From positions 558,001 to 622,000 of the forward strand of contig NZ_SJPP01000001.1 of assembly GCF_007860075.1 (NCBI RefSeq): 64,000 nt of DNA, read 5' to 3'. Below, piece after piece: positions 25,685 to 32,902 of this stretch (its first letter is position 1; every line of letters begins with the position of its first letter). A program made the translations under genes and the position numbers. The DNA is from Symmachiella macrocystis. Its GTDB lineage: Bacteria > Planctomycetota > Planctomycetia > Planctomycetales > Planctomycetaceae. The notes under the pieces were generated by a model. It had not been told where the DNA came from and made no database searches. It saw only the letters and a program-made list of their open reading frames with translations.

Positions 25685-26302
25685 CTATTCCGTGGATTCA
25701 TCCACCGGTCTCAGAGAGAGAACGCATTGACTCATTAATTCAATCTGCTCGCGCGTACATTTTTCGTCTTCTGAATTATTGAAAAGAAAGTCTTTGTCAC
25801 CGATGGAGACAACAGCAATGAGTTCATAAACAGCATCTTGGGGGGCGGGGGTTCCTTCTTGTGAATGATAAATCACAACCTGGTCGTCGATGACCTCCAC
25901 GGTACTAACGATGTCAGTGTACTTATTCTGAGCATATTCGCGAATATTCTCGATTGTATCCAACAGCGGCATCGTATTCCGCATCGTGAGTATAAAAAAG
26001 GAGCCATTGTAGAAATTGATTTCTCGGGATTTGCCGCTCGTGTCTCCTAGGCCATTTGGGTCCATAATCCAATCCATTTTGGTCCCCTTTGGCACATCAA
26101 TCAACGCTGGAACACCGGTTTCTGAGAGATCCAAGGTGACGAGTTCTATGCCTTGATCTTCATGGTTGTTGGCCGGCTCACCAACAGCGTCAACTTCCAA
26201 GTCGCCCTCTTCTGGTTCCGCTGAATTCTTATTACAGCCACCCATGGTGACGAGAATAATGAGGAGTAGAATGCGAAAAACAGGTGATTCTGGAATGATC
26301 AT
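25685..26302 (-). CDS. Small acidic lipoprotein, function unknown
   Basis: A 205-residue protein starting at ATG 26302; a TTG one codon upstream is less likely, because GGAG lies 7 bp before this ATG. The signal segment PVFRILLLIILVTMGGC ends in a lipobox. The mature N-terminus is acidic and Pro/Asn-rich (NKNSAEPEEGDLEVDA), followed by a compact domain of ~140 residues with no recognised family. Two Cys (in EKCTREQIELMSQC) near the C-terminus could form a disulfide. The gene is more A+T-rich than its neighbours and is bracketed by imperfect inverted repeats, which suggests it arrived or spread as a cassette. Confidence 0.7.
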   Translation of the reverse strand: MIIPESPVFRILLLIILVTMGGCNKNSAEPEEGDLEVDAVGEPANNHEDQGIELVTLDLSETGVPALIDVPKGTKMDWIMDPNGLGDTSGKSREINFYNGSFFILTMRNTMPLLDTIENIREYAQNKYTDIVSTVEVIDDQVVIYHSQEGTPAPQDAVYELIAVVSIGDKDFLFNNSEDEKCTREQIELMSQCVLSLRPVDESTE

Positions 26303-26704
26303 CAATCAGCTCCGACAAGTCTGGTGTGGATGCGTTAATCGCGAGCGCTCTGAGGATTGGTAGCCCCCTAGCTCGGAAATGATAATTTCAACGATAATCG
26401 GGAGAGCCTGTTTTCTCAACCCGCCAGTCGACGAAATGGCGGCATGATTTTTAGTTCACATCATTCTAAAACTAGTTGCAAAACCACTACTCAGTGTTCA
26501 CTGAAAAAAGATTTCGGATAATCCCAAGGCTCGATGGTAAAGGCGTTTTTCAAGCATTTAAGTCGCATCCCAAAAATATTTACTGTTTGAAATGGTTTTG
26601 AAACTACTTGTAAGTGCAAGAATCTCAAACGAACTGGGGGGCGAGCGAATGCTCGTCCCCAGCCAGCCTGAGCCTGACAGCTATCGTTAGTCTGTGCACT
26701 ACGA
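26303..26704. other. Intergenic region, 402 bp, mostly the right inverted-repeat arm
   Basis: No gene is supported. The 26460-26665 part is the right arm of the repeat pair that flanks the small lipoprotein gene. The remainder must hold that gene's promoter; only its GGAG ribosome-binding site could be assigned. Confidence 0.5.
26460..26665 (-). repeat. Right arm of the imperfect inverted repeat
   Basis: Read inwards to outwards on the plus strand it shows TTCTAAAACTAGTTGCAAAA, GTTCACTG, then TGGTTTTGAAACTACTTGT, then a hairpin CTGGGGGGCGAGC-GAAT-GCTCGTCCCCAG (26635-26663). Each element is the inverse of one in the left arm. The arm is longer by an insertion of roughly 80 bp between the AGTGAAC-like and TTTCAAAAC-like elements. 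Confidence 0.55.
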
Positions 26705-28092: not shown

Positions 28093-29370
28093 TCACTCCC
28101 CAAGCTCCGACCACTGCGTAACAACTGCCACCATCGCCGCACACAACGTGCTTAAATCCTCCGGTGATATCACCAGCGACGGTGTGATATAAATCGCATC
28201 GCCGAACGGGCGGATCCAAACGCCCTCTTCCAAAAATCGCTCGCGCAGCCAACCGACGTGCCGCAGCTGGTCAACCTGAATCACCCCAATCGCGCCCTTC
28301 GCGCGGACATCAACCACGCCCGGCAACTCTCGACAGTCGGCCAATTGTTCAGCGATCGCTGTTTCAATCACCCGCGCTTGCTCAAGACGCGGCTCGCGCT
28401 CAAACAAATCCAACGACGCATGCGCCGCCGCACACGCTAACGGATTCGCCATGAATGTCGGACCATGCATCAGTGCATGCGCCGGATCATCGGAGAGAAA
28501 CGCTTCGAACACACGGTCCGTCGCCGCCGTCGCCGCCATCGGCATTGTGCCACCGGTGAGCGCCTTGGACACACACATGATATCCGGCACGACGTCGGCC
28601 TGCTCGCACGCAAACATCGTCCCCGTCCGCGCGAAACCCGTCGCGATTTCGTCGGCGATCAACAACACATCATGCGCATCGCACAACTGGCGAATCGTGG
28701 CGACGGTTTCGGGCGGATGGAATCGCATCCCCCCTGCCCCTTGGACGATCGGCTCGAGCATCACGGCAGCGATTTCGTCGCGATGCTCGCCCAACAACCG
28801 ATCGAGCGCTGTTGTCGATTCCTCATCCAGCGGCAAGTCGGTGTTGAATTGCTCTGGCAGAAACCCACGAAAGTGCGCGTGCATGCCGTTCACCGGATCG
28901 CAGACCGACATCGCTGTGATCGTGTCGCCGTGATAGGCATGCAAAAAACTGACAAACTTCGTCCGCCCGCGCACACCCCGGTTCAGCCAATACTGCGCCG
29001 CCATTTTCATAGCGACCTCGACCGAGACCGAACCCGATTCGCTAAAGAACACACGATTCAAATCCCCCGGCAACAGCGCCGCCAACCGCTGGGCCAATCG
29101 CAGCGCCGGTTCGTGATTGATCCCGCCAAACATCACATGCGGCATCGCCTTCAACTGCCGCTCGACCGCCGCTTCAATATGCGGATGCCGATACCCATGA
29201 CACGCCGACCACCAAGAAGCCAACCCATCAATCACCCGCCGCCCATCGGCAAGAATCAGCGACACCCCGTCGGTCCCCACCACCGGCACCGGCAGCGGCG
29301 CGGTCTGCATTTGCGTGTAGGGCATCCAAATGTGTTGGTAGCCGTCGATTTGCCAGGGGGGGGTGGTCAT
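28093..29370 (-). CDS. bioA: Adenosylmethionine-8-amino-7-oxononanoate aminotransferase
   Basis: A 425-residue PLP-dependent class III aminotransferase that makes 7,8-diaminononanoate from KAPA with S-adenosylmethionine as amino donor, in biotin synthesis. BioA marks are HIWMPYTQM at the N-terminus, DGLASWWSACHGY, FFSESGSVSVEVAMKMA, FLHAYHGDT, LIADEIATGFARTG and PLP Lys in CVSKALTGG. GPTFMANPLACAAA is also typical. ATG 29370 (MTTPPWQIDGYQHIW) is preferred; the frame runs to 29472 but the added 34 residues are unlike the family. No other bio genes are adjacent. Confidence 0.95.
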   Translation of the reverse strand: MTTPPWQIDGYQHIWMPYTQMQTAPLPVPVVGTDGVSLILADGRRVIDGLASWWSACHGYRHPHIEAAVERQLKAMPHVMFGGINHEPALRLAQRLAALLPGDLNRVFFSESGSVSVEVAMKMAAQYWLNRGVRGRTKFVSFLHAYHGDTITAMSVCDPVNGMHAHFRGFLPEQFNTDLPLDEESTTALDRLLGEHRDEIAAVMLEPIVQGAGGMRFHPPETVATIRQLCDAHDVLLIADEIATGFARTGTMFACEQADVVPDIMCVSKALTGGTMPMAATAATDRVFEAFLSDDPAHALMHGPTFMANPLACAAAHASLDLFEREPRLEQARVIETAIAEQLADCRELPGVVDVRAKGAIGVIQVDQLRHVGWLRERFLEEGVWIRPFGDAIYITPSLVISPEDLSTLCAAMVAVVTQWSELGE

Positions 29371-29527
29371 GGTCGGGTGGTTTGGTCGAGAATACTTGGT
29401 TTCAATTAGGGCCATGTTATTCAGGTTCGTGCTTCGCCTAGCAAAGTGTGTTTCAATGCCAGGCACGATCACTCGGGTTACGTACCAACGTCATTTGAAT
29501 TGAGTGACAACAAAAGGCAAATTTGGG

Positions 29528-31579
29528 TTACGATATCTTTCTTACTGTTTTGTCATAAATGTCTTGAATATGACCATCCTTGACCCCTCCATTTCGTGCC
29601 TGTCGAATAAATACACGAAGGTCGCGATCACCAAGTAACACTACGATAGCGTTTCCATTCTGCTGATTCGCAATTCTTTGGATATGTTCGTAGTAGTGAT
29701 TCTTAATCTCACCACGAAATGCTATCACACCAAAACCACCGATCGGCCTCGATAAGTAATATCCCATTTGTTGAAAATCGCTCGAATCCAATGTTTCATA
29801 ATTTTTACATTCAAAAACCACCTGTGTTGCACCGTACCGGTTTCTCACCATATTCCAGAAACCAGCATGGGCGACATTTGCGGCAATCCAGTCTCGTCGT
29901 ACCCTTCCCTTTTTTCCGGGGCTTTGCGGCTCAAGATTCGTAAGAACATGAAATAAACTATATTTAATTACCTGACCGACAACATCCTCGTATTCCGTCG
30001 CATGCTTTTCACCTTTGGGAAGGGTACTTAGCTCCTCAGCGAGCGAATCCAGTTTGTCTTGGTATTCCACAAGGTCAATCGAACCTGGTATATCTAGTAA
30101 GATCCCCACCTCTCGCAATGTTGCATCTTTCAGTTCGGTTAGCACGCTGTCTCGGAGTTGAAGAGCATCGTGGAACGTTGGGTGTATCTCAATTTGCGTA
30201 TGATCATCAATTTTCGGCAATGCCTTTGCGCGTGCACCGTGCGAGCGGTAGACGATGTTCGCACTAGGATTTCGTATGCCGATGAAACCGATGTCAAATA
30301 ATAGTCCAATGAAAGACTCCGGCGCAGAGTTTGCATAAATCCATTTTCCACAAGCAGTTTTTATCTGCTCGTCTGCAATTAGGGCAGCTATGATATCCCG
30401 GATAGCCGCAATTGTGTAACATGTAGTCAACCCAAAGAAACGGGCGAGAACGAGCTGAATCTGGTGGAAGTTCTCAGAATATTCGTCGCCAAGGTCTTTT
30501 AGTCGACTGTCAGAAAATTTCTTTTTTGCCTCGTGAAGATCCTCGATCTGAACTTGGTTGTGCCTGCGTGCCCTTGCTCCGTCAATTGCGTAGTCGACAT
30601 ACATGAGTACATCACGTGGACGATGTTGGCATTGCTCAAACACCCACTCGTACGAAGAGACACCGTTCTCTAATTCAAAAAAATGGTCCCATGTTGGACC
30701 GCCTAGAGGCGTTCTCGTGTTGAACGGCACAAGCAGGCGGCGCTCAACCAATTGCAAAAGGAGCTCACGAGTCCAGTCGAGTGAAACAATCCATGTTTCC
30801 AATCGAGCAAACTCGTTGTCTATCTCCCGAACTCTCTCGAAAATATTCTCTCGGCAGAACACCATTGTGCGAGCGAACGAGACTTCAATATTTAGTTGCA
30901 CTGCGGCATGCATAAGCGCCATCAACATCACGATTGCTTTATCCGATCCATCCCAGTCCTCGTCAACTCTGTCTATTAGAATCCGGTGTTTTGCTATGCC
31001 CTCCGAGAGATTGCCCATCCCTAACGCAAGCGCTTTCACTCGCCTCAAATACTTCAACCATTCCTTTTCAGATTTCGACGCGTGTTCATACTCTTCAAGA
31101 ATTGCGACCAACTTAAAGTCGAAGTCTTCCTCCTGTAATAAACGCGACTCACGTTTTACGTCCCCTACGAATTCATACTCGTTGACATCGCCATTTCGAA
31201 TCCAAGCGGCGAGAAACTCAAGCAAGAGTGTTCGCTTAAATGCGTGTACGATGGACGTGAATGGGCGCTGTCGCGTGTCCTTAAACTTATCAATACCGTC
31301 CGGAAGATTAGCTGACGACAACGTTTGCGGGTGGATAATCGTCGCGCGCTTGTTTGACTCTACAAATCGAGTTATCGCCGTTTTTCCCGTACCTCGACGC
31401 CCAACGAAAAGACACTTTTCTCCGGTGGACTCCACAGCCTGTGCCATTGCAGGAGTGTTTACAAAAGCCCATTTATTTTCGAGCAAGGTGTCATACTCGG
31501 CGAACGAATGCCCAACCGAAACTCGTGTGAGCGCGTCTTTTGGCAGAACTGGCTGCGGTTTCTTGGAGGATTTTGCCAT
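29528..31579 (-). CDS. P-loop ATPase (Sll1717-like) fused to a predicted PD-(D/E)XK nuclease domain
   Basis: A 683-residue protein in an AT-rich gene. The N-terminal ATPase has Walker A GRRGTGKT (60-67) and a Walker B-like HRILIDRVDEDWDG (199-211), which resembles the P-loop ATPase family named after Sll1717. A helical middle follows (~230-520). The C-terminal ~150 residues show the layout of a restriction-endonuclease-like fold: a helix Glu (Glu531, EYEDVVGQVIKYSLF), Asp563 (RRDWIA), Glu590-Cys-Lys592 (VVFECKNYE) and Gln in DFQQMGYYL. Start ATG 31579 (MAKSSKKPQ) is preferred over 31681, with GAGG upstream. ATP-driven sensing coupled to DNA cleavage, as in antiphage defence, is an inference. 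Confidence 0.75.
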   Translation of the reverse strand: MAKSSKKPQPVLPKDALTRVSVGHSFAEYDTLLENKWAFVNTPAMAQAVESTGEKCLFVGRRGTGKTAITRFVESNKRATIIHPQTLSSANLPDGIDKFKDTRQRPFTSIVHAFKRTLLLEFLAAWIRNGDVNEYEFVGDVKRESRLLQEEDFDFKLVAILEEYEHASKSEKEWLKYLRRVKALALGMGNLSEGIAKHRILIDRVDEDWDGSDKAIVMLMALMHAAVQLNIEVSFARTMVFCRENIFERVREIDNEFARLETWIVSLDWTRELLLQLVERRLLVPFNTRTPLGGPTWDHFFELENGVSSYEWVFEQCQHRPRDVLMYVDYAIDGARARRHNQVQIEDLHEAKKKFSDSRLKDLGDEYSENFHQIQLVLARFFGLTTCYTIAAIRDIIAALIADEQIKTACGKWIYANSAPESFIGLLFDIGFIGIRNPSANIVYRSHGARAKALPKIDDHTQIEIHPTFHDALQLRDSVLTELKDATLREVGILLDIPGSIDLVEYQDKLDSLAEELSTLPKGEKHATEYEDVVGQVIKYSLFHVLTNLEPQSPGKKGRVRRDWIAANVAHAGFWNMVRNRYGATQVVFECKNYETLDSSDFQQMGYYLSRPIGGFGVIAFRGEIKNHYYEHIQRIANQQNGNAIVVLLGDRDLRVFIRQARNGGVKDGHIQDIYDKTVRKIS

Positions 31580-31815: not shown

Positions 31816-31989
31816 GTTAGCCGTCGCGACGTTACCCAACCGCATGAATTGAGTGACCGATTTCCCATCGCAGTCGACGCCGCCCTGCGCGCGATCTGTT
31901 TGCGCTGCCTACAAAAATTACCAGCCGATCGTTACGCCTCCGCCGCTGCGTTAGCGCGTGCACTACAGGAACTGGGGCACGGCGACTAA
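31816..31989 (+). pseudogene. C-terminal remnant of a serine/threonine protein kinase
   Basis: In one open frame the sequence reads FPIAVDAALRAICLRC, LQKLPADRYASAAALARA and LQELGHGD, then stop 31987-31989. This is the last helix of Hanks-type kinases, where the Arg in P-x-x-R-Y is conserved. There is no start codon and no catalytic core upstream: an in-frame stop lies at 31813 and the ATPase gene begins at 31579 on the other strand. It is most likely the stub of a kinase gene cut off by insertion or deletion. Its stop overlaps the end of the convergent LRR gene by three bases. Confidence 0.7.
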
Positions 31990-32789
31990 GGGACTGTCGC
32001 TGACTTTCGCTTCGGATACTCGATCAATTTCTTCCAATGCACATAACAATTCGGCAGCGTGTTTTGTATTTCCATGACCCCCTCATGGGTAACGTCCGTT
32101 TTGGCCAATGACAGATACGACAAACTCGTTAGACCGTGCAGGTGCTTTAATCCCGCGTCGCTGATCCTGGTGTTTGTGAGTGAGAGATACTTCAGGTGTG
32201 GCAAAGCTTGGAGGTGTACCAAGCCCGCATCGGTGATCTGGGTGTTTTCGAGCGACAGTTCGCGGAGAGTGGTCAGATTACGCAGATGCTCGAGGCCGGT
32301 GTCGTCGGTTCTTGTGTTGTCCAAGCGGAGGTATTTGAGTTTCTTCAGCCCTCGCAAATGTCTTAAACCGTTGTTGCTGATGTACGCATTGTCGAGCGTC
32401 AGAAACTCCGCATTGGCGAGATCCTGGAGTTCTTCCAATCCTTTGTCACTCACGACCGCCCCGTCAAGCGAAAGGTCGCGGACGTTGGTCAAGCCTCGTA
32501 GTGGCGCTAAGTCGCCATCTTGAACCGTAGTGGCGTTGAGATTGACTTCCCAGACGCGCTCGTACGGTTTGAGTTTATCGTCGCCGATTTTATCCGGAAT
32601 CCAGCCGGGCCGCTCGGTCTCGGTTTGCGTCTTTCCCCCCAGATCTTCAATCGCGGCAATCGCCCGTTGATTTTGAAAGTGCGGCCACCAGACGATCAGA
32701 AATCCGCCGACGACAATCACAATCACAGCCACGATCAGCAGCGTACCGGTCCGTGGAAAACGATTCTTTGCGTGAGGTATCTCAGCCAT
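31986..32789 (-). CDS. Membrane-anchored leucine-rich-repeat protein
   Basis: A 267-residue protein with a short basic cytoplasmic start (KNRFPRTG), one membrane segment (~16-36) and an exported part. From ~85 to ~245 there are about seven LRR units of 23-24 residues, such as LRELSLENTQITDAGLVHL and LKYLSLTNTRISDAGLKHL, of the planctomycete T-x-I-T/S-D-A-G-L type. Such proteins are taken to bind other proteins; partners are unknown. The N-terminal anchor (RFPRTGTLLIVAVIVIVVGG, then QNQRAIAAIEDLGG) is shared with the gene at 53645-54199, marking them as paralogues. Confidence 0.88.
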   Translation of the reverse strand: MAEIPHAKNRFPRTGTLLIVAVIVIVVGGFLIVWWPHFQNQRAIAAIEDLGGKTQTETERPGWIPDKIGDDKLKPYERVWEVNLNATTVQDGDLAPLRGLTNVRDLSLDGAVVSDKGLEELQDLANAEFLTLDNAYISNNGLRHLRGLKKLKYLRLDNTRTDDTGLEHLRNLTTLRELSLENTQITDAGLVHLQALPHLKYLSLTNTRISDAGLKHLHGLTSLSYLSLAKTDVTHEGVMEIQNTLPNCYVHWKKLIEYPKRKSATVP

Positions 32790-32902
32790 CGTGAACGCTC
32801 CTTAATGTCTGCCCGCGATTGTACCATGCGAGACACGGATTGAAATATCATCCGCACAGCGACCGAAAGATTCGAGCAGCGCCGCATCCAATCATCAACC
32901 CC

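Follow-up and report, generated by a model that had tools for sequence, protein, structure and literature searches.

STAND-type immune sensors habitually swap effectors on one ATPase, and FokI cleavage domains must pair to cut. Several described systems come close to the protein analysed here. The Avs/nSTAND proteins join a STAND-type ATPase to an effector nuclease, while BrxC is an ORC/Cdc6 ATPase of 1200-1300 aa that lies within the BREX locus (PMC12839542). DS-41 is a DefensePredictor system that has been experimentally validated against phages (PMC13092281), and DefensePredictor is also reported to include validated systems with P-loop and PD-(D/E)XK domains. The gene considered in this study lies in a stretch of 64,000 nucleotides of Symmachiella macrocystis DNA, the whole of which we call the window, and it fuses an ATPase of this general kind to a nuclease.

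29528..31579, minus strand: ATPase-nuclease fusion gene, 683 aa; open frame, with a full-length relative (L002) 50% identical and a start codon that agrees with the N-termini of relatives.

Translation of the frame from 29528 to 31579 runs without interruption, with no internal stop, and the gene is present as a single copy in the 7.57-Mb host genome. We consider it likely that the product is a horizontally acquired single-gene immune protein, with an ORC/Cdc6-like STAND-type ATPase as its sensor or switch and a FokI-like nuclease as its effector.

The ATPase half has the following layout.

30161..31513, minus strand: Sll1717-family P-loop ATPase with a C-terminal winged-helix-like region, residues 23-473 (NF047389 match and VIA fold matches).

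31379..31402, minus strand: Walker A motif GRRGTGKT, residues 60-67 (no change at K66 or at most other motif positions across 51 sequences).

30959..30982, minus strand: Walker B motif ILIDRVDE, residues 200-207 (D203 and D206 invariant in 51 sequences).

Pfam alone gave nothing above its cutoffs for the 683-aa protein. The NCBIfam model NF047389, "P-loop ATPase, Sll1717", was matched by residues 23-473 along almost its entire length (E 8.5e-79, 265.8 bits against a cutoff of 75, model positions 2-454 of 454). That model describes an ATPase alone, without an effector, whereas the window protein adds a nuclease domain. In the AlphaFold2 model made from 51 family members (mean pLDDT 89.5), the first 480 residues gave VIA matches to STAND and ORC/Cdc6 AAA+ ATPases, the C-terminal helical and winged-helix parts included, with Z between 11 and 12.6 (2fna, 12.6 over 326 residues; 2qen, 12.4; 1w5t, 12.1; 1fnn, 11.9). 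BREX BrxC was also among the fold matches of this half when Foldseek was used.

The nuclease half follows at the C-terminus.

29531..30076, minus strand: FokI/BspD6I-like PD-(D/E)XK nuclease domain, residues 502-683 (AlphaFold2 pLDDT 94.4; VIA; PADLOC PDC-M36A).

29987..29989, minus strand: E531, in the helix ahead of the core sheet (E in 50 of 51 sequences).

29891..29893, minus strand: D563, candidate metal ligand (D in 49 of 51).

29804..29812, minus strand: E590-C-K592, (D/E)XK motif carried by the following strand (E or D at 590 in 49 of 51, K592 in 50 of 51).

29768..29770, minus strand: Q604, in the helix after the core (Q in 50 of 51).

Folded alone with AlphaFold2, this domain was predicted with high confidence (pLDDT 94.4, pTM 0.90), and its best VIA matches were R.BspD6I2 (2p14; Z 12.2, 150 aligned, rmsd 3.1 Å), FokI (2fok_B; Z 12.2, 154 aligned, rmsd 3.6 Å) and N.BspD6I (Z 12.0). 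The next matches were EcoT38I, MspJI, AspBHI, HindIII, Shedu SduA and Can2; Card1, NucC, McrC and Avs4 were likewise found, the Avs4 nuclease more weakly (Z 6.9). Two other searches gave candidates that we did not retain. Foldseek alone ranked the RNA polymerase subunit RPB5 top for this domain, with no match at E ≤0.001, whereas the slower aligner VIA placed FokI and BspD6I first, and a sequence search of the PDB returned a single match, the colicin M immunity protein, whose E of 0.03 is a chance value. The predicted core has the alpha-beta-beta-beta-alpha-beta order of the PD-(D/E)XK superfamily, made up of helix 524-541, strands 546-551, 564-568 and 586-592, helix 599-608 and strand 616-621. 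D563 opens one strand, E590-x-K592 lies on the strand that follows and Q604 in the helix after it.

The original prediction had read an intact Walker A motif GRRGTGKT, a Walker B-like site and a C-terminal E...D...ExK...Q arrangement fitting a PD-(D/E)XK nuclease from the protein sequence, and these assignments stand. Had the C-terminal model lacked a PD-(D/E)XK core, the last of them would have failed; instead the core is predicted at high confidence, and the order E531, D563, E590-x-K592, Q604 is that expected of a PD-(D/E)XK enzyme, so the residues had been assigned correctly. Because the relatives were collected with either of two patterns, QVV[FW][ED][CA]KN (around residues 586-593) or the Walker motif (around 58-66), the conservation of positions 590, 592 and 60-66 is partly by construction, and the identity of G60, R61, R62, G63, G65 and K66 in 51 of 51 full-length relatives, with T64 in 46, should be read with this in mind. 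E531, D563, Q604 and Walker B fall outside the collecting patterns, so that no such bias affects them; in Walker B, D203 and D206 do not vary among the 51. The whole set of E531, D563, E/D590, K592 and Q604, two positions of which were covered by those patterns, is kept in 49 of the 51. The two relatives that have lost nuclease site residues, from Marinobacter (L077, 981-3026) and Stenotrophomonas (L081, 7911-10007), are both full-length and look like natural inactivations.

Set against the known systems, the window protein shares parts with several of them. Its nuclease fold is that of FokI and BspD6I (Z 12) at a sequence identity of 7-12%, but a FokI-type IIS enzyme has an N-terminal sequence-specific DNA-recognition domain where the window protein has an ATPase. 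PDC-M36A, a phage-defence candidate of PADLOC, matches residues 516-657 (E 4.7e-15, model positions 288-429 of 457), which indicates a related nuclease; its first ~285 positions are unmatched, so the front part is different. PADLOC makes no call on the whole 683-aa protein, which counts against an immune role, and no Avs model is among its PADLOC matches. The logic of a STAND-type ATPase with an effector nuclease is common to Avs proteins and the window protein, but the latter carries its effector at the C-terminus, has an ATPase of the ORC/Cdc6 type and shows no long repeat sensor region in the predicted structure. With BrxC only the ATPase fold is common, the window protein having 683 aa and standing alone. 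The DS-41 ATPase, DS41_1, is distantly related, which speaks for an immune role given that DS-41 is validated, and its 448-position model leaves no room for a nuclease domain; with 33.8 bits against a cutoff of 370 for DS41_1 (NF053860) the window ATPase is not a member, and so weak a link counts against the immune interpretation. The window fusion may overlap with a DefensePredictor system. The original prediction knew of no close described system with this pairing. This holds for the open-access literature searched (most subscription papers lie outside it), in which we found no description or experimental test of the ATPase-nuclease fusion and no function given for a relative on the F plasmid that is described below. 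It does not hold for the separate halves, since the ATPase half already has a name (NF047389, which is also the RefSeq name of the F-plasmid relative) and the nuclease half resembles part of PDC-M36A. As the ATPase family is named and the general design is known, the fusion is not a new category.

The surroundings of the gene bear on how it came to its present position.

31840..31989, plus strand: Ser/Thr kinase remnant, last 49 codons and stop, front part missing (89.6% identity with the 3′ end of the closest relative's kinase gene, which is intact at 507 aa).

29496..29508, plus strand: 13-bp direct repeat TGAATTGAGTGAC, left copy, flanking the gene (two copies only in the window).

31845..31857, plus strand: 13-bp direct repeat TGAATTGAGTGAC, right copy, within the kinase remnant (two copies only in the window).

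The ATPase-nuclease gene is accessory and was probably acquired horizontally: it is full-length in 2 of 170 genomes of the host's bacterial family, is absent from the closest relative and has the lowest GC3 (0.47) among the 39 long ORFs of the window. Its GC content is 46.6% against 54.9% for the window, and it lies between a bioA-like aminotransferase gene (28093-29412) and a leucine-rich-repeat gene (31986-32789), with the kinase remnant alongside. The features from which the original prediction read an inserted accessory locus, a gene that is richer in A+T than its flanks, sits between bioA and a leucine-rich-repeat gene and adjoins a truncated kinase gene, are each confirmed. No defence gene was recognised adjoining the gene in the window, which counts against an immune function. 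In the closest genome (~93% DNA identity around bioA), which is without the gene, the site is syntenic but remodelled; between bioA and the next conserved block it holds the intact 507-aa kinase and an apparent transposase, which from reading its sequence we take to be of the IS630 type. The 13-bp repeat is beyond chance, as no repeat of at least 12 bp arose in 300 shuffles of the flanks, and it may be a trace of the gene's arrival. We considered it as a target-site duplication, but the sequence on the left side is not that of the kinase and a clean insertion is therefore not supported; the arrangement could equally well stem from a deletion with homology at its junction. Between the kinase remnant and the next conserved block there is a second variable spot (31973-32899 in the window, L136:10627-11953 in the closest relative), where the window has the leucine-rich-repeat gene and the closest relative a thioredoxin-like gene. 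The window also contains another low-GC ORF at 25685-26305 (GC 45.7%, GC3 49%), possibly encoding a lipoprotein, within a stretch that does not align to the closest relative genome.

Relatives of the protein are thinly spread in the family of the host and widely spread outside it. A scan of genome contigs with a single protein query gave no close relatives, and these were found with an alignment as the query. Any match at all was seen in 6 of the 170 family genomes, the two full-length ones including the window genome. The nearest known relative (L002) is full-length and 50% identical, and it and the window gene each stand alone between chromosomal genes. Full-length relatives at 40-50% identity occur in Planctomycetota, Acidobacteriota, Actinomycetota and Pseudomonadota, with Streptomyces, Micromonospora, Pseudomonas (L021), Rhizobium and Paraburkholderia among the genera; a Bacteroidetes bin also has a relative, the reading frame of which stops early. 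In the tree the window protein is grouped with at least four phyla at 100/100 support, and within this mixed clade the Actinomycetota and the Pseudomonadota each form their own group. Relatives were also found on 347 plasmid records, two Klebsiella phage records and 13 predicted viral contigs.

One of these relatives is encoded by the F plasmid. WP_000422420 (NC_002483, 4303-6399), named by RefSeq as a Sll1717-family P-loop ATPase, has the same order of ATPase and nuclease and is 26% identical to the window protein over 632 aligned positions; its catalytic residues match those of the window protein, with D instead of E at 590. It lies on a distant branch of the tree, where it was placed via a close relative (L052), and unlike the window gene it is borne on a transposon. 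On the F plasmid its gene belongs to ISEc63, a Tn3-family element, and shares the space inside the terminal inverted repeats with tnpA and tnpR. The unit of 5,981 bp is the same base for base on the F plasmid (L009:4193-10173) and on the DH5alpha chromosome (L172:2229-8209), where the flanks differ from those on F and the unit sits at the junction of a truncated ion-channel gene and a truncated mhpD. An identical unit between the repeats with different flanks indicates that the transposon carries the ATPase-nuclease gene along as cargo when it moves. Among 5,426 complete E. coli genomes the gene was matched in 126, of which 115 match across 80% or more of its length; XL1-Blue is included. The F plasmid has been in use for decades and we know of no phage phenotype that has been assigned to this gene, which counts against the immune reading.

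The ATPase is also found with other effectors. Seven proteins of ~800 aa (L012, L014, L016, L087, L090, L091 and L092) combine it with an N-terminal domain that is TIR-like or nucleoside deoxyribosyltransferase-like; the matches of this domain to nucleoside deoxyribosyltransferase and CAP12/Pycsar TIR families are weak and below cutoff, the best having an E of 9e-6. Another protein (L088, 7974-10889) carries, after the ATPase, a nuclease domain that has lost its (D/E)XK motif and then a PNP_UDP_1 domain (E 6.4e-22). Some relatives consist of the ATPase alone, which is the arrangement of the DS41_1 model, and the nuclease domain occurs on other N-termini as well (L013, L015). On balance we favour the view that the Sll1717 ATPases form an NLR-like family of immune sensors in bacteria, in which an ORC/Cdc6-type ATPase is combined with exchangeable effectors (FokI-like nuclease, TIR-like, nucleoside phosphorylase). 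On the same view the nuclease branch would have spread partly by riding on transposons, and an immune gene that has gone unrecognised would already be present on the F plasmid and in common laboratory strains.

The places in which relatives are found were compared with arbitrary stretches of 20 of the same host genomes. Scored at E 1e-8, 149 neighbour genes of relatives matched 107 PADLOC families and a further 85 matched 140, counts that overstate the numbers of proteins because one protein matches many redundant models; the 124 control genes matched 5 families, all of them generic and also found in the test sets. Near relatives and absent from the control were PD-Lambda-5 A and B, type I and III R-M, DRT, AbiGi, IetA, PDC-S08, PDC-S20 and SoFic. 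Six phage integrases were present in the first neighbour set; neither the 25 most frequent families of the control nor the 25 listed for the second set include one. It had been suggested that homologues confined to the conserved core genome would speak against a defence role, and the relatives are instead in variable, defence-rich places. No constant partner emerged from the genes around 75 relatives, where even the most widespread family was present at just four loci, which suggests that the gene is self-sufficient and works singly.

We infer that the window protein acts on DNA, that it is directed against phages or plasmids and that it is activated by oligomerisation. At rest the ATPase would be held inactive. 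Its ATPase half would recognise a sign of invasion, which could be a phage protein or a DNA structure that is abnormal or comes from an invader, and would then bind ATP and oligomerise; the nuclease domains would thereby be apposed, and the paired FokI-like domains would cut DNA. An oligomerising switch would fit well with the pairing that FokI-type domains require. The same molecular mechanism could serve another beneficiary, namely the transposon or plasmid that carries the gene, if the protein excluded or outcompeted rival plasmids, transposons or phages by cutting them. The F relative, which is carried inside the terminal repeats of a Tn3-family element, and the relatives on plasmid, phage and predicted viral records are consistent with such a role, but the window gene and its nearest relative stand alone between chromosomal genes, and we regard it as unlikely.

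The closeness of the ATPase fold to STAND and ORC/Cdc6 structures would also fit an ATPase that loads a structure-specific nuclease on host DNA, in DNA repair or in the control of replication. This explanation appears quite improbable for a gene that is rare and patchy in its own bacterial family and absent from the nearest genome, and whose relatives have defence-rich neighbourhoods and swapped effectors, a nucleoside phosphorylase domain among them. The least probable alternative in our estimate is that of a decayed or inactive immigrant gene, kept only through its recent arrival. The kinase remnant and the alien composition would be in keeping with it, as would the Marinobacter and Stenotrophomonas relatives without nuclease residues; however, the frame is intact and all catalytic residues are present, though the nearest known relative is only 50% identical.

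If the immune reading that we prefer is true, the unassigned gene of the F plasmid, which is also present in DH5alpha and XL1-Blue, would be an immune gene, and phage work and cloning in common strains could be affected by it. A Tn3-family transposon would then carry such an immune gene as cargo, and the ORC/Cdc6-type ATPase would serve as a modular switch in immunity, combined with three or more kinds of effector.
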